DNA from: an uncultured Erysipelotrichaceae bacterium
Lineage (GTDB): Bacteria > Bacillota_I > Bacilli_A > Erysipelotrichales > Erysipelotrichaceae
DNA length: 38,594 nucleotides
Assembly (NCBI GenBank): GCA_902786245.1
Contig: CADABS010000025.1
Span: 1 to 38,594 of the forward strand
Direction of reading: 5' to 3'
The first letter of the stretch is position 1; the number at the start of each line of letters is the position of its first letter. Made by a program: the position numbers and the translations under genes. The notes beneath the pieces are model-generated. The model was not told the origin of the DNA, did no database searches, and saw only the letters and a list, made by a program, of their open reading frames with translations. Below are positions 28,737 through 38,594 of the stretch, in pieces.

Positions 28737-28764
28737 AAAAAAAAGAGAATCAGTTCGATTCTCT
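28737..28764 (-). terminator. Terminator of the sortase/SipW operon
   Basis: Minus-strand AGAGAATC, loop GAACT, GATTCTCT (loop base pairing approximate), then eight T. It is ten bases past the signal peptidase stop and closes the operon that starts at the sortase. Confidence 0.88.
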
Positions 28765-28773
28765 CCTGTATAA

Positions 28774-29262
28774 TCATTCACTCCGGAGTCTGCCTGCCAG
28801 AATCTGAAACATGACACCGCAGGCGACAAACAGCAGCAGATAAACTTTTCCGGCAGCTGTTGTCAGATACTGCAGCACAGCGCCGAGATGATCGTAATGG
28901 CTCTTTACAGATCCGATCAGATCATTATAGGAAACACTGCTGAGATCTTCCTCCAGATTCGCATCGCCCTTCGTGATAAACTCGCTTTCAAAGGGGAAGT
29001 TATCTACGACACGGTGTGTCACAACCGTACCATTGCTGGTAAATGCAATGATTTCACCTTCTTCAATGGTTTTCGGATCTCTCGGTTCCACAATGATCAG
29101 GGAGCCTACCGGAATCTCCGGCTCCATACTGCCGCTGATAACATTGTAGATTTCATAATCAGTAAATCTGGGCAATGCAGGTATTGCCATCGCTGCTATG
29201 ACAGCCAGAATCAGAAATGTACCGAATACGTTACAAAGGGCAGGTAATACTACCCTGCCCAT
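28774..29262 (-). CDS. SipW-like (ER-type) signal peptidase I
   Basis: A 162-residue membrane signal peptidase of the ER/archaeal type that includes B. subtilis SipW. The catalytic Ser is in ISGSMEPEIP (Ser45) and the general base is His83 in VVTHRVV, in place of the Lys of ordinary bacterial signal peptidases. The third motif is TKGDAN (Asp100). There are two membrane helices, at about 8-30 and 135-155. The start at 29262 follows the family opening but has a weak ribosome site. It is the last gene of an operon that contains SipW-dependent-type secreted proteins, its likely substrates. Confidence 0.9.
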   Translation of the reverse strand: MGRVVLPALCNVFGTFLILAVIAAMAIPALPRFTDYEIYNVISGSMEPEIPVGSLIIVEPRDPKTIEEGEIIAFTSNGTVVTHRVVDNFPFESEFITKGDANLEEDLSSVSYNDLIGSVKSHYDHLGAVLQYLTTAAGKVYLLLFVACGVMFQILAGRLRSE

Positions 29263-29284
29263 TATGTTTCGTTTCGGCTCGGAA

Positions 29285-30361
29285 TTACTCCTTGCTGTCC
29301 TCATCCTCGTCCTTCTTACGCTTGAAGAGGAAGTACCACAGCAGCCAGAGGATACCTGCTCCTCCGCCCAGTGTTCCAAAGAGAGTCCACGGGTTCTTGA
29401 TGAAGTTATCGATTGCGGAATTGCCATCACCTTCATTTTCACCCTGACCATCCGGCTTTGTTGTAGGTGTATCGTCGTCATCCAGATCGATTACATCTTC
29501 CGGCTGACCCTGCGGAGTAGGCTCATCATCGATGTTTTCGCCCTGACCGCCCTGACCATCATCAGGATTTACATCTGTGCCGCCCTGGCCGCCCTGACCA
29601 TTATCAGGATTTACGTCAGTACCGCCCTGACCTCCCTGACCGCCCTGGTCAGGATTGACAGTACCTTCACCGCCGCCTCCGGCAGGCTGTCCGCCTCCGC
29701 CAGCAGGCTGTCCGCCGCCACCGGCACCTTCGTTACCGCCGCCAGCGCCTTCATTTCCGCCGCCGCCAGCTTCCTGCTGTTCTTCTTCCTGCTGAGGAAT
29801 CGGTCTGTACTGGAACGGGAAGATGTTTCTGCTCGGATCAGAACTCAGCGTCTTCTGCAGGTTATAGGCCTGCGGCTGCATGCCTTCGAAATAGGTGAAT
29901 GCTACGACGATGATTTCACCGACAGTACCATAGAATGTTCTGTCCGGCTGCAGTTTTTCGCCGGTTTCCGCATTGATATACTGAACTGTATATTCTACGT
30001 TTTCACCAGGCAGTGCATACTTTGCGACCAGTGTTGTATCTTCTCTGATGACGAGTGCATCGCCTTCATTGACAGTAGCGATACCTTCGATACCTGCATA
30101 ATGCCAGCCTCTGAACTCGTATTTGGAGTTGTTGGAAGCTGCTGCAGCATCGAACTGATGGAATGCATCATAAGGCAGAACATACTGCTGTGTGCCGGCG
30201 TCCCACTGTACAGTCACTGTACCGACGACTTCCGGTCCGTCTGTATAGCTGCCGCCTTTGAATGTCACGGTAAACGGATAGTGTTCATCCGCAGCCTTGG
30301 CTCTTGTGCTCATTCCGAAGAAGAGCAGGAATACCAGTAATACTTTACTCAGCTTTTTCAT
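29285..30361 (-). CDS. Membrane-anchored surface protein with MucBP-like region and Gly-rich stalk
   Basis: A 358-residue exported protein. A signal peptide (about 1-24, ending STRAKA) is followed by a beta-rich part of about 170 residues. Its VTFKGGSYTDGP and KYEFRGWHY stretches resemble InlB B-type repeats, and YTVQYINAETGEKLQPDR resembles a MucBP unit. Then comes a Gly/Pro/Asp-rich stalk (about 190-310), an acidic stretch, one membrane helix (about 330-347) and the charged tail KRKKDEDEDSKE. No LPxTG motif is found, so it seems held by its helix. The start is the ATG at 30361, ten bases after GGAG; an ATG nine bases earlier is too close. Confidence 0.8.
   Translation of the reverse strand: MKKLSKVLLVFLLFFGMSTRAKAADEHYPFTVTFKGGSYTDGPEVVGTVTVQWDAGTQQYVLPYDAFHQFDAAAASNNSKYEFRGWHYAGIEGIATVNEGDALVIREDTTLVAKYALPGENVEYTVQYINAETGEKLQPDRTFYGTVGEIIVVAFTYFEGMQPQAYNLQKTLSSDPSRNIFPFQYRPIPQQEEEQQEAGGGGNEGAGGGNEGAGGGGQPAGGGGQPAGGGGEGTVNPDQGGQGGQGGTDVNPDNGQGGQGGTDVNPDDGQGGQGENIDDEPTPQGQPEDVIDLDDDDTPTTKPDGQGENEGDGNSAIDNFIKNPWTLFGTLGGGAGILWLLWYFLFKRKKDEDEDSKE
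29520..29780 (-). repeat. Gly-rich tandem repeats coding the surface-protein stalk
   Basis: Two kinds of repeat lie side by side: short GGGGNEGA or GGGGQPA units, then two longer units of the form GQGGQGGTDVNPD. The DNA copies are nearly identical, so the length probably varies between strains. Confidence 0.8.
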
Positions 30362-30366
30362 ATCAT

Positions 30367-31074
30367 TCATTCTCCTTCCTTTTCAGAACGGATTCTGAAT
30401 AATACGATTGCCATGATTACGAGTCCGCTGACAACCGACAGCAGCATATAAGGCATCAGTCTTGTCGGGTCAGATGTCGGAGGCGTAGTCGGAATTGATT
30501 CAAGTTCTACCGCAAATGCCATCTGCAGTGTTGCGACAGTATCCTGATATGCGTTGCCGTCTGCTTCACCGTCGAGAGCGACATTCAGAACAAGTTTGCC
30601 TGCTTTTCCGCTGGGAATCGCATCCAGGAAGAAATAATCTTCCAGTGCTTCTGTCGCTTCATGCAGACCCTGACGGTTATGGAAATCTGTTTCACCACCG
30701 ACAGCCGAGCTGTTGAACAGTTCGATTTCCTGTCCGTCATCGCCGTAGTATGTCAGTACATATCCATATGCACCGGAATTTGCGACCTTACTGGCATCTT
30801 CGAAGGATTCCACGACAGAGTTCTTCATCCAGTAATTGACTTCATCTTTATAATTGTTTCTGATTTCAACCGTGAATGTCGCATCATCACCAGGCTGCAG
30901 CTGGCTGAGTGTATCATAAGTGCTTGTCTCTTTGAAGTTAGTATCGAGCTTGTTGCCGCCATCGAAGGAAACGTAGTATCCTTCGCCGCCTTCATATGAT
31001 TCCGCCAGTACAGGTGTACCGAGTGCGAGGAACATCATACTGAATGCGGCTGCTCTGCAAATCCATTTATTCAT
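30367..31074 (-). CDS. Secreted protein with C-terminal sorting-signal-like anchor
   Basis: A 235-residue exported protein: signal peptide (about 1-24, ending PVLA), a beta-rich body, a short TPPTSDPTR linker, a membrane helix (about 203-224) and the positive tail RIRSEKEGE. The end has the layout of a cell-wall sorting signal, but PPTSD replaces LPxTG. It could be a degenerate or altered sortase motif, or a plain membrane anchor. GGGGGAG precedes the ATG. The body keeps the D/N-rich DATFTVEIRNNYKDEV found in proteins of SipW-type clusters. Exact family not recognised. Confidence 0.75.
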   Translation of the reverse strand: MNKWICRAAAFSMMFLALGTPVLAESYEGGEGYYVSFDGGNKLDTNFKETSTYDTLSQLQPGDDATFTVEIRNNYKDEVNYWMKNSVVESFEDASKVANSGAYGYVLTYYGDDGQEIELFNSSAVGGETDFHNRQGLHEATEALEDYFFLDAIPSGKAGKLVLNVALDGEADGNAYQDTVATLQMAFAVELESIPTTPPTSDPTRLMPYMLLSVVSGLVIMAIVLFRIRSEKEGE

Positions 31075-31091
31075 TATCTGCTCCCCCTTTC

Positions 31092-31910
31092 TCAGTTATG
31101 ACTCAGTGAAGCCGGATCAATGGATGTACCGTTCATGGAAACATTCTTGCCCCATGCGCTCTTGATCGCTGCAACAGCGTTATGTGTCTGTACACCATCT
31201 GCCTGTGCTTCGATCACGAACTGTACTTCATCATAGTCATATGTTGTTGTGTAAACCGTAACGCCATTCACAACTTCTGTTGTCTGTGTAACCTTCGCAG
31301 CAGTCGGATATGTAATCTTCAGCGTGTCTGTCAGCGGATCTGTTGTGCCCCCCACCGGCACAACATCCGTATAATACAGAACGGTTCTTTCATTTGTCGA
31401 TTCATCCTGGTTGATGACCCATTTGCCTTCCAGGAAATGAAGATCGATCAGAGAAGGATCTAATGATGTATCCTTTTTACCGTCTTTCTGCCAGTACTTA
31501 TAAACGCTGACACGCACATATTCATCGATCTGGCTTGAATTCGTTACAGACAGCCATTCGTTGTATGTCTTACCGAGAACCAGGTTCTTCGATTCTGTTG
31601 CTTCGATTTCAGCTCTCAGACCTGTCAGCAGCTCGCCGCCTGTCATGACCCAGTTGCCGTCCAGTGTTTCAGAACCGACTTCATAGTTTCTCGAACTGAC
31701 GGGCGCTGCACCGGAGCCGTCTGCTGAATTTGATTCATTCAGCGTAATGCCGATGTGCTTCATGTCAATTCTTGCATCGTACTCATCGGAGAAGATTTCC
31801 AGCGCTGCTCTTGCGCCGCCGATCGTTCCGAATCCCAGCAGTCCTACTGCAACAGCTGCCAGAATCAGTGTGAACAGCGGCAGTTTCTTCTGTGTATTCC
31901 GCTTACTCAT
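31092..31910 (-). CDS. SipW-dependent-type exported protein
   Basis: A 272-residue secreted protein. A long basic signal sequence (MSKRNTQKKLPLFTLILAAV then a hydrophobic run ending GGARA) is followed at once by ALEIFSDEYDARIDMKHIGI, a mature start like those of exported proteins in SipW clusters of clostridia. The body is beta-rich (for example DEYVRVSVYKYW), and there is no C-terminal anchor. It overlaps the previous gene by 8 bases and has GGAGG upstream. A role as a fibre or matrix subunit is inferred by analogy with TasA. Confidence 0.78.
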   Translation of the reverse strand: MSKRNTQKKLPLFTLILAAVAVGLLGFGTIGGARAALEIFSDEYDARIDMKHIGITLNESNSADGSGAAPVSSRNYEVGSETLDGNWVMTGGELLTGLRAEIEATESKNLVLGKTYNEWLSVTNSSQIDEYVRVSVYKYWQKDGKKDTSLDPSLIDLHFLEGKWVINQDESTNERTVLYYTDVVPVGGTTDPLTDTLKITYPTAAKVTQTTEVVNGVTVYTTTYDYDEVQFVIEAQADGVQTHNAVAAIKSAWGKNVSMNGTSIDPASLSHN

Positions 31911-32379
31911 TGATCACACCTCCCGTCGACCAGTCTGCTTCACCCTCGTTATCGAGGTTGTATGTCGCTTCATAAACTACGACAACATTGATCTCTTCCA
32001 GTTCGACGTTTGTCAGATCAAGGAAGAAGATCAGCTGGCTTGTGCTCTCGCCCGGCTGCAGGATCTTGCCATAGTACCAGTAGCCGTCATCCGCCTTTGT
32101 CCAGTCCGGATTGTTACCGTAGTTTTCCTGTACGGTAACTGCATCCGGTGCGAATGCCAGCGCTCTGACTCTGAGCGGAACTTCACCCTCATTGACGATC
32201 GTGACTTTCTTCTGCGAATCATCAACTTCTTCGACGATCCTTGTCTTGTCACTCAGGTGCAGGGTAACAGTTCCCTTCGCTGTTGTATATGTTGTGAAGT
32301 AAGCCAGTGCTGAAGGCACCGACAGTGCCAGTACCATGACCGCTGCCAGGGCAGCCATGAGCATATTCCGTTTTTTCAT
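31903..32379 (-). CDS. TasA/camelysin-like SipW-dependent small exported protein
   Basis: A 158-residue protein with a signal peptide ending PSALA, followed by YFTTYTTAKGTV. The A-Y-F-T start of the mature chain is a hallmark of SipW-dependent proteins (TasA, camelysin and relatives). The remainder is a compact beta-sandwich-like sequence (VEEVDDSQKKVTIVNEGEV, LRVRAL) without anchor. Its start overlaps the preceding stop as TAATG. It is probably exported and cut by the signal peptidase at the end of this operon. Confidence 0.82.
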   Translation of the reverse strand: MKKRNMLMAALAAVMVLALSVPSALAYFTTYTTAKGTVTLHLSDKTRIVEEVDDSQKKVTIVNEGEVPLRVRALAFAPDAVTVQENYGNNPDWTKADDGYWYYGKILQPGESTSQLIFFLDLTNVELEEINVVVVYEATYNLDNEGEADWSTGGVINE

Positions 32380-33482
32380 TACTCATTACCTCCCTGCTCT
32401 GCGTATTTCCAGTTAACCTTTTCTGCACCATCGACAGTTGTCTTGGACGCTTCGAAGTGGTTATTGATTCCATAGCCGGTCTTTCTGGAAGGAACATAGC
32501 TGTCGTTGAAGTCAAACAGCGGATCGCCCGTTTCTTCAGTAGCAATACTCAGATCCTTTTCGATTTCCTCTGCAGTGCCTTCTGTGACATCATAAGAACT
32601 TCCCTTGTAGATTTCGGTAACAACTACATAGGAACCGCCCGGAATATCCGTGAATTCAGCTTTATCACTGAAATTGTTCATTGACACAGTCAGACCGACA
32701 TAGTTTTCATACAGCTTTTCAGCCTTTGTCGAATCCGCATATGCTGCAACCCTGAACACGAATGTCGCCGGTGTTGTCTGTTCATAGCTCTGCACTGCCT
32801 TCTGAACAACGATCTTGACGAATCTGTCTTTTCTTTCCGGCTTCAGCACAACATTCAGTTCCGTCAGCCAGTCGCCATAGTCTTCCGAGCTCATCGAAAT
32901 ACCGTCTTTGGCTTCCTTTGTCGGCAGTGTGAACAGCTGCGGTCTGTAGACATATTCGTACCTGTCTGTTGTGATCTTTGTCGTAACCGCATCATCTGTG
33001 ATTTCTGCCTTGTCATTGGCTTTGTCATGCGGTACTGCCAGCCAGAGACCCGAATGCAGATTGACCGTGTTTCCTTCACCGAACTTGTCCACTGTCACCT
33101 TTTCAAGATCCAGTGTGCTGTCCTCAGCAAGCACTGCCTTGCCGGCTGTCAGGCTCAGTTTATCCCAGGCTGTTGTATCCAGCGTCTGCAGATAGCCGTA
33201 ATCACTCAGATCTGCACCTTCGCCGAAATCCACATACGGTGTATATGAATACGCGTCAAAGCCATCGAGATCCTTTGTGTCCGCTACGAGGTAGAAATCA
33301 ACCGCCGCATCGGCATCCGCCAGATCTTCAAGGTACTCCGTATCAGAAGTACCGGCGAGATAAACTGTTATCTTCGTCTCCTGGTCAATCGCATTGACAG
33401 CCTTGGGCACTGCCGTAACCACTGCCAATCCTGTTAACGCAGCCAACCCGATCCGTATGACTTTGTTTCCTTTAATCACCAT
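32379..33482 (-). CDS. Secreted pilin-like protein without sorting signal
   Basis: A 367-residue exported protein. The signal peptide (about 1-31) ends KAVNA. Two parts of Ig/Cna_B-like character follow; the second (about 215-320) has TPATFVFRVAAY and the E-box-like SYVVVTEIYKGSSYDV, as in domains with internal isopeptide bonds. There is no LPxTG motif or membrane helix at the C-terminus (ends EQGGNE), which is odd for a protein beside a sortase. GGAGG precedes the ATG, and it overlaps the sortase gene by 11 bases. It may be polymerised or bound non-covalently. Confidence 0.72.
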   Translation of the reverse strand: MVIKGNKVIRIGLAALTGLAVVTAVPKAVNAIDQETKITVYLAGTSDTEYLEDLADADAAVDFYLVADTKDLDGFDAYSYTPYVDFGEGADLSDYGYLQTLDTTAWDKLSLTAGKAVLAEDSTLDLEKVTVDKFGEGNTVNLHSGLWLAVPHDKANDKAEITDDAVTTKITTDRYEYVYRPQLFTLPTKEAKDGISMSSEDYGDWLTELNVVLKPERKDRFVKIVVQKAVQSYEQTTPATFVFRVAAYADSTKAEKLYENYVGLTVSMNNFSDKAEFTDIPGGSYVVVTEIYKGSSYDVTEGTAEEIEKDLSIATEETGDPLFDFNDSYVPSRKTGYGINNHFEASKTTVDGAEKVNWKYAEQGGNE

Positions 33483-34380
33483 GGCTGATCCCTCCTTCGT
33501 TCATATCATCCATTGATTCTTCTATATATTCTGTAACCCGTTCGCGTGTACTCTTCTTCTTTCTTGTCGAAATCAGAAGAATCACCAGCAGGATGAAGAG
33601 CATCGGTGTAGCAACCAGTGGTGCAACATATACCGGCTGCAGCTGAATCGCATCTGCATTGACATTGGCAACGCCAAGCGGATTTTCAATACGTCTGGCA
33701 TGAACCAGCAGACGGTGGCTGTTGACGCCATATGGCGTACATGTAACAAGCGTAACCAGATCCTTACCAGCCTCAATCGTCAGATTGCTGAGATCGGTCG
33801 GCTCAACGATTGTCTGATCGTACACTTCGTATGTATATGTACGGTTCAGAATCGTAAGCGTGAAGGTGTCGCCTTTCGTCAGACGGTCGATATCCGTAAA
33901 CAGACGTGCGCTTGGCAGACCTCTGTGTCCTGTAACAACGCAGTGGCTGCTTTCGCCGCCTACCGGAAGACTGCTTCCCTCAAGATGTCCGACCGCTACC
34001 TGCAGAACTGATTCATCCGTCCCGTGATAGATCGGCAGCTTGATGTTTGCCTTGGGTATATCGATATATCCCATAATACCCGAGCCGGTAATATCCAGAA
34101 CAGCGTTATATTCCGCTTTCTGCGCATCGGTCATAGTCCATTGAACACCGGTTTCAGCCATCCGCGTATTATACGCTTCCGCCTCCGCAATGATCGCGTC
34201 ATATTCAGCCGGATCCAGATTTGCGACGGCGCTTACATAGGAAGCAACCGCTCTTGACTGATGGTAGCTGTTCCACCAGTCCGCAAATGTCGGATAGCCG
34301 AGTATGGCAAGACCTAACACCAGTATTCCAACGAGGCCCAGATTGACCAGTCTGTCACTTTTCTTCTTGTTTTTTGTCAT
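33472..34380 (-). CDS. Class C sortase (pilus polymerase)
   Basis: A 302-residue membrane transpeptidase that joins pilin subunits. It has an N-terminal helix (about 12-32) and a C-terminal helix (about 255-275), the two-helix layout of class C. The catalytic His is in VVTGHRGLPSA (near 151), Cys in TLVTCTPYG (near 213), Arg in NSHRLLVHARR (near 221). The MGYIDIPKANIKLPIYHGT stretch is family-typical; the usual DP(W/F) lid motif was not found. ATG 34380 is chosen; a TTG 12 bases upstream is possible, and neither has an ideal ribosome site. It opens an operon of seven genes. Confidence 0.9.
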   Translation of the reverse strand: MTKNKKKSDRLVNLGLVGILVLGLAILGYPTFADWWNSYHQSRAVASYVSAVANLDPAEYDAIIAEAEAYNTRMAETGVQWTMTDAQKAEYNAVLDITGSGIMGYIDIPKANIKLPIYHGTDESVLQVAVGHLEGSSLPVGGESSHCVVTGHRGLPSARLFTDIDRLTKGDTFTLTILNRTYTYEVYDQTIVEPTDLSNLTIEAGKDLVTLVTCTPYGVNSHRLLVHARRIENPLGVANVNADAIQLQPVYVAPLVATPMLFILLVILLISTRKKKSTRERVTEYIEESMDDMNEGGISHGD

Positions 34381-34863
34381 TTCTCTGTTCAAGTACCCTT
34401 AATCTAATGGCATAGATGCACATAGTGCAATATGCCTGGCAAGGAGTCTTCCTGTTATACACTTTCATCTTAATCATTGACCCGTCAACAAAGCAGTCAA
34501 ATATAATCAGAAACGTGCGGTACTGATTGCCATGCATTCAATGCCGATGCGGTCAATACACATCAAAAAACAGACAGAATGCCTCACACATAAGTTATCA
34601 CTTTAGAGGTATCAATTCAATGATTGCATGCTTAAAATATTAGCATTGTCCGCCATTCAGCATGAATTGACAGCCAGATATATGACGATATATATCCTTA
34701 TATATTATATACGATTGTTAAGCACTGTTTTTATTGAATATCTGCATATATTCACTTTAGCTGCGTCAAAATCCATACATCTGTGCATAAACAAACATAG
34801 AAGCCAATCCAAAAGGACTGGCTTCTATAATTAATCATTCAAATTGTTTTTCAGAACAACTGC
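34381..34863. other. AT-rich intergenic region between backbone pilin and sortase
   Basis: No convincing gene. Near the pilin it holds a strong hairpin (separate entry), then AT-rich sequence with ATATAT inverted runs near 34680-34705. Several weak promoter-like pairs occur on the minus strand, among them a TATAAC box near 34455 and a TTGACT near 34494-34499; none is clear enough to name as the sortase promoter. Confidence 0.5.
34797..34828 (-). terminator. Terminator/attenuator between backbone pilin and sortase operon
   Basis: Minus-strand 14-bp stem (ATAGAAGCCAGTCC with GGATTGGCTTCTAT, one G-T wobble), loop TTTT, then GTTTGTTT. The broken T run suggests partial read-through. Confidence 0.75.
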
Positions 34864-36795
34864 TTATTCAGCATTCATTCTTCTCTTTGTAACAAGCGCT
34901 ACACCAGAAGCGATAACCAGGATCGAACCGAGGATGTAGAAGATTGTTGTACCAATACCACCGGTAGAAGGAAGTTCAACACCCTTAGTGTTCTGAATCT
35001 CGAACGGATGTTCTACAACGCCGCCATCTGTCCAGACAGGTTCAACCTCATTTGCATCATTGGTGAATGTCCAAGTATCGGTCTTCTTCGTAGCATCGAA
35101 ATTAGCATTGTCGCCAACAGTTACAGTATAGCTCTTCAGGATATCGGTATCATAGGTGTAGGAAGAATATCCTGTCTGATCAGTCAAAGCATTGTATTCG
35201 CTTTCAGACTTCCATTCCTGACCATCTTTAGTATACTCAGTGACGTTCTCAACCGCTACAGTCGCATCGATGACAACCTTGAATGTTCTTGTATCGCGAA
35301 CAAATCCATCCGGTGCAGAGAGTTCCTTCAGATAGTATGTACCACTGTCAAGGCCATCGAATTCCATACGGCCATCACCAGTCGTAGTTGCTACAAGGAT
35401 TGCATCAGCTTCAGCGCTCTTGGAAGCGTCGGTGAACAGGGCGAATTTCGCACCAGCCAGCGGGCTTGTCCATTTCTCACTCTTTGTGATTTCGCTGCTC
35501 ACTACTTCAGTCTTGGTAATCGGCTCTCCATTAGCATCTACGCCAGTCTTTACGAGTTCAGAGGTCTTCTTGCCTTCCAGATCCTCACCACCGCCAAAGA
35601 TGTTGGCATCCAGGGAGAATGTGTAGTGATTTGTTGTATCCTTCTTATAACCCTTGCTATCTTCATTTTCCGGGTTGTTGGAGAATTCTGTGGAAACTTC
35701 GTTCTTTTCGAGGTTTACATTCTTCGGAGCATCCGCAGCAACCTTAGCTTTATAAGTAATGGTAATTTCTGTCGGAATTATTACAGTCTGCAGGAAGCCA
35801 GGATCGAACGTAATTGTATAGCCACCATCTGTAGCAGAAATCGTATAACTAGCCTTGTCTTCCTCTCCGTCGTTGTAAGTAGCATCAACGCCTGTCACTG
35901 TTACATCATAATCAGTGCTGTCAGTCTTCTTCTCAAGTGTCAATGCAGTCAGAGTATCCTTTACATTGAATACCGGATTTTCATAAACAGTACCGAAACC
36001 AGGAATCGTTGTTTTTACTGTGAAGGTAAGAACATCGCCAGGAGCAGTTGTTGTCCAGGACAGATCTGTGGATTCTGTACCAGTGAGCGCCGTTGTACCT
36101 GTAATATCCTCGCGCCAGAGATCATCTTCATTTGCGCTTGTAGCTGTCTTGCTCAGAGTAACTGTGCTCTTCTTTGCGGCAGCTTCGTCTCCATAAGTAG
36201 CTGCAGTAGTGACTCCCCAAGTCGCATTAGCTACTTTATCAGGATCATTATACTGTGAGGAAACAAAGATCGGATTATAGACAGTATCAGGATCTTTAGG
36301 TGTTACGAGAACCATGTACATACCAGCATCGATTCCAGCCTTTTCAGCTTTACCATCTGCACCAACAGTTACTGCTGGTGTCAGTTCTGTCTTCGATGCT
36401 ACGCGTGCAAGCTTACCAGCCAGATCAGCTGTAATACCTGTAGGAGCAACCGCTGCAACGTAGCCTTCTGTTCCTTCTTCTCCTTCAGCCGGTGTTCCAA
36501 CAAAAGCCTTCTTGAATTCAGCTTCAGTCAGGACGTTTTTATATACATCAACAACTTTCCAGCCAGAAACAACGACAGAACCAGCAGGCTGTTCAGCATC
36601 GCCGACCCATTCAATAATGTGGTAAAAATGTGCCACATCGTCTTCTGCCAAACCAGTTACACTGATGGGGCTCTGATTTGTCGGTGTCGCTGCAGGTGTT
36701 ACATCATCATCGTCACCAGCGAATACATTCATGCCCATTCCGAGCATCATGACCATGGCGAGGACCAGGGTCATAAGTTTTCTAAAATGTTTCAT
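34864..36795 (-). CDS. LPxTG pilin backbone (SpaA-type isopeptide-forming)
   Basis: A 643-residue cell-wall pilin. Signal peptide (about 1-27, ending MNVFAG), an N-terminal domain, a middle domain (about 210-400) with TVTLSKTATS (candidate Lys for an isopeptide bond), and a C-terminal Cna_B/SpaA-type domain starting PLAGAKFALF with E-box YYLKELSAPDGF (near 490). The end is the sorting signal LPSTGG (near 610), a membrane helix and TKRRMNAE. This is the domain plan of polymerised backbone pilins; a classical YPKN pilin motif was not found. A strong promoter and structured leader precede it. AAAGGG lies before the ATG. Confidence 0.9.
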   Translation of the reverse strand: MKHFRKLMTLVLAMVMMLGMGMNVFAGDDDDVTPAATPTNQSPISVTGLAEDDVAHFYHIIEWVGDAEQPAGSVVVSGWKVVDVYKNVLTEAEFKKAFVGTPAEGEEGTEGYVAAVAPTGITADLAGKLARVASKTELTPAVTVGADGKAEKAGIDAGMYMVLVTPKDPDTVYNPIFVSSQYNDPDKVANATWGVTTAATYGDEAAAKKSTVTLSKTATSANEDDLWREDITGTTALTGTESTDLSWTTTAPGDVLTFTVKTTIPGFGTVYENPVFNVKDTLTALTLEKKTDSTDYDVTVTGVDATYNDGEEDKASYTISATDGGYTITFDPGFLQTVIIPTEITITYKAKVAADAPKNVNLEKNEVSTEFSNNPENEDSKGYKKDTTNHYTFSLDANIFGGGEDLEGKKTSELVKTGVDANGEPITKTEVVSSEITKSEKWTSPLAGAKFALFTDASKSAEADAILVATTTGDGRMEFDGLDSGTYYLKELSAPDGFVRDTRTFKVVIDATVAVENVTEYTKDGQEWKSESEYNALTDQTGYSSYTYDTDILKSYTVTVGDNANFDATKKTDTWTFTNDANEVEPVWTDGGVVEHPFEIQNTKGVELPSTGGIGTTIFYILGSILVIASGVALVTKRRMNAE

Positions 36796-36939
36796 ATTTC
36801 CCTTTCTTTATGGAGTTCTGCTCCATTCATAATGAGACCGTTGGTTTTTAGCCAGGACAGTGATCTATCGCCTGGTGCTGCATAATTGATTTAGTGATCC
36901 TAAACTAATTACCTGCTCCTTTCACATGGCATCACCTCA
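36796..36939 (-). promoter_or_regulatory. Structured 5' leader of the backbone pilin mRNA
   Basis: About 143 nt between the predicted transcription start and the ATG. In order on the minus strand: GAGGTG followed by a start-stop pair ATG-TGA; AAGGAGCAGG; a hairpin CCAGG/CCTGG; and ATGGAG-CAGAA-CTCCAT just before the ribosome site. The 7-mer GATCACT occurs twice. No known riboswitch class was recognised. Confidence 0.5.
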
Positions 36940-36945
36940 GTGTAA

Positions 36946-36974
36946 ATTTTAATTGGTTTTTATTTATTTGTCAC
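36946..36974 (-). promoter_or_regulatory. Promoter of the backbone pilin
   Basis: Minus-strand GTGACA (36969-36974), 17-base spacer, TAAAAT (36946-36951), both five of six to consensus. ATTGGT and ACCAAT form an inverted repeat around the spacer. Confidence 0.75.
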
Positions 36975-37222
36975 CAATATTTCTTTACATTTTTATAATA
37001 ATTATTCCTTTGTCTAATTATTAATCAATAAATCGGGTGACTGTGTGCCATATGGGCTTCTATGAGCATATTTATTGATTCTGATCTGTATACGGCTTGC
37101 CCCGTATATGAGGGATTATGTCTTTTACAATAGGCCATCCCTCCTGTTCTGCTGCCTGACTTTCAATACTGTAATATGAGGTGCCGGAGGTCCGTTTCCT
37201 CTACAGCAGGAATGGTATTTCA
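36975..37222. other. Intergenic region with nested hairpins between the two LPxTG genes
   Basis: No gene accepted. On the minus strand it holds, in order, GAGGGAT/ATCCCTC arms, TATACGG-GGCAAG-CCGTATA (37089-37108), then the large inverted repeat at 37023-37080. None has a T run, so no terminator of the upstream adhesin gene was found; read-through into the pilin is possible. Confidence 0.5.
37023..37080. repeat. Perfect 11-bp inverted repeat with 36-base loop
   Basis: AATCAATAAAT at 37023-37033 and its exact complement at 37070-37080. It lies upstream of the pilin promoter. Confidence 0.85.
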
Positions 37223-38594
37223 TTATGACCACCTCCTGCGTCTGTACATCAGCCAGCCTGCTGACAGGATCATGATGAGACCTGCCAGCGTATATGCCTG
37301 TGTGCCTCTGCCGCCTGTATGAGGCAGTTCAGCGCCGGAAGAGTTTGTCACTGACAGCGACGCTTTGAATTCAACGGCTGAAACAGTTTCTGACCTTGTT
37401 CCCTGCATAATACTGACTCTGCCATTGCTCTCCACAGTGATCGCCATCGGTCTTGGATCCAGGACATATCCTTCTGGTGCTGTTGTTTCAACCAGATAGT
37501 ATGTACCCGGCACCAGTGCCCCGAGTGACACCTTACCAAATGTTTCTTCTTCAGATGAAGTTGTCAATCCGCTTTGTATCGGCATTGCACCTTCTCCGAT
37601 TTCACCGTCCGCAACAGCCTCTTCTCCATAGAGGTCAAAGACTGCTCCAGACATTTTTTTGGTCAGGTTTCCGACATCTACTTTGATAATTTCAATTTCA
37701 TAATCGATGTATTTATTTACGAAAGATGCAGTCTGCACTCCGGATTCATCATTCGGGGATACAACTACCGTAATTCCGCCTTTTGCCGCATCATAGCCGG
37801 CTGCAGACGTATCGATAAATGTATTCGGATTGCCCAATTCGGTTTCTTTAACGACATATGTTCCCGGCGCCAGCCCTGATACGCTCAATTCCTTATCCGG
37901 AACACCGCCGGTAATCGTGATACTCAGTTCTCCAATCTGCGTTCCGTCAATTTTCGAGGCAGGCGTTGTACCATCTTCGTTAAACACCGTAAATACATAT
38001 TTTCCGTCCGCTTTGGACCTTACGGCTTCCGCCAGTGTTTCCGGAGCTGATTCATTGATCAGTACCGATTTCGTTATCTTCAAAGATCCCTGCAGCAATT
38101 TATTATTGATAATTGCTGTATCGTCATCATGCAGACCATTGGAAAGTCCCAGATATGTTGTTTCATACCCTGCTGACGGATATGTTTCCACAACATAGTA
38201 GGTATATTCGTTGCCAAGTTCATCGAACCTGGGAAGATCGCTCTTTTCCCATTTCCAACCATCCGATTCCGTAACGGTATATGTATCTCCGACCTGTTCA
38301 ATCACAGTGGTTTCACACGGCAGATTTGTATCATCTCTGGGGGTATAACTATCGAGAATTGTCTGCAGTTCTGCCTGTGTTATAACCTGTGCTTCAGATC
38401 TGTCCGGTGCCGCTTTCAGTTTCGGTCTTATTCCTGCCGCAAGCAGCTTTGTACCTCCTGCCGCCTGCACATTTTTGCCTGCCTGCACAATTGTTATATC
38501 TAACAGTAAACAATTTTGTGGATAGAACGATAGCTGACTTATAATGAATCTGCCATGAATAGAAATACTTAAGCAGCCATTCAACTCTATTCTT
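37223..38594 (-). CDS. LPxTG adhesin-like Cna_B protein, 5' end beyond the window
   Basis: The frame is open to the window edge, so the N-terminus is missing; about 457 residues are seen. Several Cna_B-type units follow one another: one with WKWEKSDLPRFDELGNEYTY and VVETYPSAGY, one with KYVFTVFNEDG and GTYVVKETELG, and one with GAVFDLYGEEA and E-box YYLVETTAPEGY. The C-terminus is a sorting signal: LPHTGG, membrane helix, YRRRRWS. It is probably the minor or tip pilin of the locus or a separate adhesin, anchored by the class C or a housekeeping sortase. The first 60 visible residues are not clearly family-like and may belong to a degraded domain. Confidence 0.85.
   Translation of the reverse strand, partial: RIELNGCLSISIHGRFIISQLSFYPQNCLLLDITIVQAGKNVQAAGGTKLLAAGIRPKLKAAPDRSEAQVITQAELQTILDSYTPRDDTNLPCETTVIEQVGDTYTVTESDGWKWEKSDLPRFDELGNEYTYYVVETYPSAGYETTYLGLSNGLHDDDTAIINNKLLQGSLKITKSVLINESAPETLAEAVRSKADGKYVFTVFNEDGTTPASKIDGTQIGELSITITGGVPDKELSVSGLAPGTYVVKETELGNPNTFIDTSAAGYDAAKGGITVVVSPNDESGVQTASFVNKYIDYEIEIIKVDVGNLTKKMSGAVFDLYGEEAVADGEIGEGAMPIQSGLTTSSEEETFGKVSLGALVPGTYYLVETTAPEGYVLDPRPMAITVESNGRVSIMQGTRSETVSAVEFKASLSVTNSSGAELPHTGGRGTQAYTLAGLIMILSAGWLMYRRRRWS

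Follow-up and report, generated by a model that had tools for sequence, protein, structure and literature searches.

A conserved locus joining sortase pilus genes to a SipW-type cassette, with a predicted basal pilin that lacks LPxTG

Why should the genes of a covalently assembled pilus lie directly against those of a SipW-type signal peptidase and its exported proteins? The question is raised by a stretch of 38,594 nucleotides (nt) from an uncultured Erysipelotrichaceae bacterium of the gut (GenBank assembly GCA_902786245.1, contig CADABS010000025.1). This stretch, hereafter the window, makes up an entire contig (G000:C25) in a genome of 2.75 Mb. All genes of the locus are on the minus strand; from the contig end at 38594 downward they encode an LPHTG protein, an LPSTG pilin, a sortase, the exported proteins O6, O5, O4, O3 and O2, and SipW. 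We propose, with a probability of roughly 0.58, that the locus encodes a conserved composite pilus in which O6 would be a basal pilin docking on a stalk of SipW-exported proteins that replaces the LPxTG anchor. A sequence-only reading of the same DNA had named two LPxTG pilins, then a class C sortase, five exported proteins and an endoplasmic reticulum (ER)-type peptidase, and all of these were recovered in place (NF033745, TIGR02228 and the Ser/His pair described below).

The sortase-to-SipW unit and the pilins before it

The seven-gene unit runs as follows, lengths being given in amino acids (aa):

33472..34392, minus strand: class C (pilin-polymerising) sortase SrtC, 306 aa; NF033745 E 1.2e-79, cut-off passed
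32379..33482, minus strand: O6, predicted two-domain basal pilin (pilin D1, CnaB and a conserved tail), without LPxTG
31903..32379, minus strand: O5, 158 aa, SipW-type exported protein; TIGR04090 E 8.5e-5, below cut-off; hhalign to PF12389-type 98.7%, 144 columns
31092..31910, minus strand: O4, 272 aa, SipW-type exported protein; hhalign to PF12389-type 95.9%, 159 columns
30367..31074, minus strand: O3, 235 aa, exported protein with a C-terminal sorting-like signal, membrane helix and charged tail, kept in 58/58 cassettes
29285..30370, minus strand: O2, exported protein with a Gly/Pro-rich linker and a C-terminal membrane anchor; weak MucBP/Flg_new; conserved
28774..29304, minus strand: SipW-type signal peptidase, ER/archaeal type; TIGR02228 E 2.3e-25; start uncertain, 29304 or 29262
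28741..28767, minus strand: intrinsic terminator 3' of SipW, hairpin GAGAAUC-GAACU-GAUUCUC followed by U8; -11.7 kcal/mol, z -2.76

Is this one unit? The sortase and O6 genes overlap by 11 nt, O6 and O5 meet at TAATG, O5 and O4 overlap by 8 nt, O4 and O3 are separated by 17 nt, and O3 and O2 overlap by 4 nt. With the uncertain SipW start left aside, 17 nt is the largest intergenic gap, and there is therefore no space for a terminator inside the unit. A split between the sortase and the SipW genes was looked for, and none was found. Judged from these junctions, the genes from the sortase to SipW read as a single operon. To this extent the earlier claim of one transcript ending at a single terminator stands. 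The two pilin genes precede this unit:

37223..38593, minus strand: LPHTG pilin/adhesin with SpaA and Cna_B domains; Pfam SpaA E 4e-18, Gram_pos_anchor E 5e-9; cut by the contig end
34864..36795, minus strand: LPSTG backbone pilin, 643 aa; SpaA E 1e-14, Gram_pos_anchor E 1e-6; LPSTGG anchor
34796..34829, minus strand: terminator-like hairpin in the interval between backbone pilin and sortase, 15-base-pair stem and T-rich tail; -24.7 kcal/mol, z -8.05

This strong hairpin separates the LPSTG pilin from the sortase, and the pilins are therefore not simply on the sortase-SipW transcript; the step from pilin to sortase transcription may be attenuated. A conserved attenuator at this junction was considered and rejected. 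Strong hairpins were seen only in the window and in the related loci L120 and L143, most relatives having a weak one or none, so the hairpin is probably a local attenuator.

The locus has a class C sortase together with LPxTG backbone and accessory pilins carrying SpaA/CnaB domains, as expected of a sortase-assembled pilus; the backbone pilin also matches the iso_D2 pilin model (E 6e-11, under the model cut-off). The canonical LPxTG on the basal pilin is missing from O6. Because the window is the whole contig, the LPHTG gene is cut at 38594. Its first ~40 codons (38440-38594) are not pilin-like and match no relative among the sequences compared, which leaves the N-terminal part uncertain and may be an assembly edge effect.

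A cassette found with and without pilus genes

We then asked whether the same gene order exists elsewhere. O4 was used as a probe on 316 genomes of the order and O3 on 84,980 species genomes, and the neighbourhoods were annotated with custom profiles. This gave 58 distinct O5-O4-O3 cassettes, in Erysipelotrichales (Bacilli) and in Clostridia, mainly Lachnospiraceae; the isolate Sarcina sp. DSM 11001 is among the hosts. A class C sortase and O6 lie upstream in the same order in 38/58 (no natural frequency, since sampling started from the cassette), mostly preceded by LPxTG backbone and tip genes, and SipW lies directly downstream of 42/58 cassettes. The sortase/SipW linkage is thus conserved across Bacilli and Clostridia, and neither condition that the sequence-only reading had named for its own refutation, an internal split or a gene order not kept in other genomes, was found. 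In one genome (G113, OPF54) matching copies of the locus occur as two pairs (C1:2797144 with C1:2910775, and C1:241065 with C2:33618), O4 being identical within each pair.

No class C sortase is in reach of the remaining 20 cassettes, six of which are cut by contig ends within 2 kb. Most of the 20 follow a giant protein of 1126 to >3000 aa; the sole giant protein checked, in L061, has strong Cna_B matches. In one of the 20 (L148:5465-8615), SrtC is replaced by a class B sortase, which precedes an O6-type protein. In a FastTree tree of O5, O4 and O3, the type of head on the cassette changes at least 3 times, compared with a mean of 16.8 and a minimum of 12 for shuffled labels, which suggests that heads have been exchanged rarely but repeatedly.

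These loci bear on two ideas about what the cassette does. The first is the earlier suggestion of a hybrid fibre or pilus-matrix complex, of which the linkage of sortase and SipW is real. A mixed fibre is not the best reading of it: since the cassette also serves giant CnaB adhesins without SrtC, and since a docking-like C-terminal domain is universal in the proteins encoded before it (see below), we regard it as a probable attachment cassette, serving either adhesins or the base of a pilus. The second idea is that the cassette is mainly export machinery, SipW trimming pilin precursors and O5 to O2 acting as assembly chaperones. Its model is the signal-peptidase-like proteins of streptococcal pilus islands, and in several relatives the pilus operon opens with a second signal peptidase, so that pilus loci do recruit peptidases. 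We consider this very improbable, because the cassette also exists without pilus genes, because the pilins and O6 have ordinary-looking signal peptides, and because a separate peptidase is often already there. This second enzyme, which often heads the pilus operon (L062:16373-16963, L115:5658-6239 and L143:3734-4351 are examples) and brings the number of peptidases to two per locus, is weakly SipW-like and probably of the bacterial type.

O6 and the C-terminal domain encoded before O5

If the two halves of the operon make one structure, what would join them? The gene at the boundary is O6, in which two short elements need to be named:

32841..32870, minus strand: O6 pilin-motif-like W205-x8-K214 at the end of D1, with the predicted acceptor Lys for the backbone pilin
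32382..32489, minus strand: O6 C-terminal tail with GYGINNHF and Asn341, predicted docking signal; Asn invariant in 58/58

The AlphaFold2 (AF2) model of O6, built from a 25-sequence alignment (mean predicted local distance difference test score, pLDDT, 79.5), has two domains. Residues 31-217 of the model match the N-terminal part (D1) of CppA, a pilus protein of C. perfringens (Z 11.2, root-mean-square deviation 2.9, 137 residues), and residues 221-331 match CnaB domains of pilus proteins (Z ~9.4). The top Foldseek match is GBS52, a minor pilin of Streptococcus agalactiae (E 1.7e-6), and the lists of structural matches also contain the basal pilins S. sanguinis PilB, SpaE and EbpB. In sequence searches of solved structures, the O3, O4, O5 and O6 profiles gave no significant match. 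At the end of D1, W205-x8-K214 has the same spacing as the classic pilin motif WxxxVxVYPK. In sortase loci every O6 protein (38/38) has a Lys aligned with K214; in the other loci 4/20 of the upstream proteins have one. We therefore infer from sequence and model that K214 may be the residue to which the backbone pilin is linked.

The second half of O6 is not confined to pilus loci. The protein encoded just before O5, whether a short O6 or a giant adhesin, has a CnaB domain and a GxGxxNx[FY] tail in 58/58 cassettes. The shared CnaB domain has an invariant triad of Lys228, Glu290 and Asn, the last being Asp327 in the window. A pattern search picked up the tail motif in 55/58 of the pre-O5 proteins; in the same loci it occurred in 8/1804 other open reading frames (ORFs) and in 0/72 ORFs with LPxTG. 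LPxTG and a hydrophobic C-terminus or membrane helix were found in 0/58 pre-O5 proteins, including O6 and its 37 counterparts in sortase loci. In L142 the pre-O5 protein passes the cut-off of PF19407, a family listed as CnaB-like isopeptide (PMC12617251). With a profile of the shared C-terminal domain, copy number equalled cassette number in 7/8 genomes; the eighth, G018, has two extra copies. These lie in giant proteins (G018:C24:24272 and G018:C38:124225) that have a docking-like C-terminal domain and no cassette directly behind; both have a stop (TAA) inside the reported stretch and could be served in trans.

With O6 described, two further explanations can be weighed against our proposal. 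It is possible, and in our estimate unlikely, that one promoter drives two independent surface structures, a sortase pilus and a SipW/TasA-like fibre or matrix that are not physically joined, with O6 as a minor pilin of the one or the tip of the other. TasA and BsaA fibres form without a sortase (PMC9674648, PMC7395162), deletion of the sortase beside sipW in C. perfringens left the BsaA polymers unchanged (PMC7395162), and O5 and O4 would by profile comparison belong to the same superfamily. The sequence-only reading, too, had called these normally separate systems, in agreement with TasA of B. subtilis and with BsaA of C. perfringens, where the adjacent srtB is unneeded (PMC7395162). What this explanation does not account for is that O6 unites a pilin D1 with the very C-terminal domain that marks all SipW cassettes, and that its gene sits exactly where the halves of the operon meet.

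Less probable still, in our view, is that O6 caps the SipW fibre or serves it as an adhesin and is not the pilus base, with SrtC acting on O3 or O6 so that the fibre becomes attached to the pilus or the wall. Sortase-less loci do have large CnaB adhesins at the O6 position, so the position may mean adhesin, and O3 does have an LPxTG-like signal. O6, however, is small, has the pilin D1 fold, and carries a fully conserved Lys that is rare where SrtC is absent.

A possible stalk and its attachment to the wall

What are the other cassette proteins? SipW-type signal regions (ALAYFTTY, GARAALEIFS) are seen by eye in O5 and O4. Profile-profile comparison relates both to the PF12389-type proteins, that is, TasA/camelysin; O5 has further, sub-threshold BsaA matches, and BsaA-like loci in G006 and G043 bridge to O4 and O3. 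The curated TasA/BsaA cut-offs were not reached by O5, O4 or O3. Profile comparison, then, would place O5 and O4 in the TasA/BsaA superfamily. The AF2 model of O4 is a beta sandwich with generic beta-sandwich matches only (best Z 6.4, no clear PDB match), and O3 matches TasA weakly (E 0.027). For O2 and O3, no TapA or BsaB/BsaC model matched at E up to 0.1 in general scans, which included no dedicated comparison. SipW scores 89 bits against TIGR02228 (cut-off 51.85) and falls below the cut-off of the Bacillus SipW equivalog NF046067. Bacterial-type signal peptidases have Ser/Lys at the catalytic places; ours has Ser (ISGSMEP) and His (VTHRV), and the ER-type label therefore holds.

O3 is of particular concern for attachment, as it ends in a sorting-like signal.

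30469..30483, minus strand: O3 sorting-like motif PPTSD; relatives have VKTGD, IPxTGD or VRTSD

An O3 end of the form [VIP]xTG/S[D], hydrophobic helix and charged tail is present by pattern in 53/58 cassettes and in 38/38 sortase loci. Which enzyme might act on it? A PF04203 search of this genome found SrtC as the sole match, with no class A sortase detected; two class-B-type sortases are present, both on other contigs. In about a dozen loci a class B sortase is next to SipW, often with a 4-nt overlap, and 3/5 examples scored over the TIGR03064 cut-off. In a Lachnospiraceae genome (UBA3632) the SipW-type peptidase and the class B sortase form a single 615-codon frame (L167:11717-13564). Fusion frames of O3 and O2 (L117:10882-12558, L118:459-2087, L119:509-2110 and L159:5830-7734) and of O2 and SipW (L144:10757-12292) tie the remaining parts of the cassette together. 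Two lines of argument from sortase content were given up. Class B sortases occur in 272/316 genomes of the order, which makes their genome-wide co-occurrence with the cassette uninformative, and it was dropped as support. A supposed occurrence of the cassette in genomes without any sortase, drawn from PF04203, was rejected, because PF04203 misses class B and G093 has one; among cassette genomes only G072, whose assembly is fragmented, is left without a sortase match.

Based on these findings, we suggest the following scheme for the composite pilus. SrtC would polymerise the LPxTG backbone pilin, with the tip adhesin at the end, and would join the last backbone pilin to K214 of O6, ending growth. 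The CnaB domain of O6 and its Asn-containing tail would dock onto O5. O5, O4 and O3 would form a short stalk of SipW-exported subunits, O5 and O4 being TasA/BsaA-like, possibly by strand complementation, which has been shown for TasA (PMC9674648). O3 would be joined to the wall through its sorting-like signal, probably by a class B sortase (this genome encodes such enzymes on other contigs, and some relatives encode one at SipW), and O2 would hold the base in the membrane. In loci without SrtC, the same stalk would display the giant CnaB adhesins. The gene order would then be the order from tip to base. A broader version of the scheme, to which we give slightly less than an even chance, is that O5-O4-O3-O2-SipW is a general, interchangeable display machine for any protein with CnaB and a GxGxxNx[FY] tail, either giant adhesins or, via the O6 adapter, a pilus base, and that it replaces LPxTG/class A anchoring in gut Firmicutes.

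Several observations weigh against the proposed composite pilus. The sampling was cassette-first. The Trp of the pilin-like motif is present in 34/38 O6 proteins of sortase loci and missing in 4/38. The PPTSD of the window's own O3 differs from VKTGD, and the resemblance of O3 to TasA is unclear (hhalign 62%, over a short local stretch). TasA is not among the structural matches of the O4 model, an absence that excludes nothing. Finally, no class B sortase is adjacent to the cassette in the window, and the wide distribution of these enzymes in the order has been noted above.

How does the locus compare with known systems? In known pili, the LPxT of the backbone is linked to the Lys in the pilin motif of the basal pilin, after which a class A sortase attaches the basal pilin to the wall through its own LPxTG (PMC8244301). 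Like the sortase pili SpaCBA, Ebp and those of the group B Streptococcus (GBS) islands, our locus has LPxTG tip and backbone pilins, a class C sortase and, in O6, a small pilin of predicted basal type with two domains and a Lys that is a candidate for the linkage; unlike them, it has a predicted basal pilin without LPxTG, a SipW/TasA-like cassette in the same operon and no class A sortase detected. With tapA-sipW-tasA of B. subtilis it shares a SipW-type peptidase encoded with SipW-exported beta-sandwich proteins, O5 and O4 being placed in the same superfamily by profile comparison. It differs in its linkage to a class C sortase and to a protein that is either pilin-like or a giant with CnaB, and in that O3 ends in a sorting-like signal. 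Assembly in B. cereus has been described as not depending on a sortase (PMC13082335). The sipW-bsaABCRSD locus of C. perfringens likewise has SipW, BsaA-type proteins and a sortase gene nearby, but its srtB is dispensable for BsaA polymers, and no pilins or O6-type protein are described for it (PMC7395162). Mediterraneibacter gnavus, of the Lachnospiraceae, is reported to have only B- and C-type sortases (srtB1-6, srtC1-2), with candidate targets nearby that have their own sorting signals; in the part of that report available to us, no link to SipW is made (PMC13121745). We found no description of a composite sortase-pilus/SipW locus in the open-access literature, and the locus would be a variant of sortase pili that is undescribed in the literature searched.

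The composite pilus is a candidate answer to how bacteria in which no class A sortase is seen retain their pili: the basal pilin would be split, its anchoring part being supplied by a SipW-exported stalk. If this is true, two surface systems that have been described separately would be joined, a C-terminal display signal would be defined, and there would be a handle on the adhesion of abundant gut commensals.

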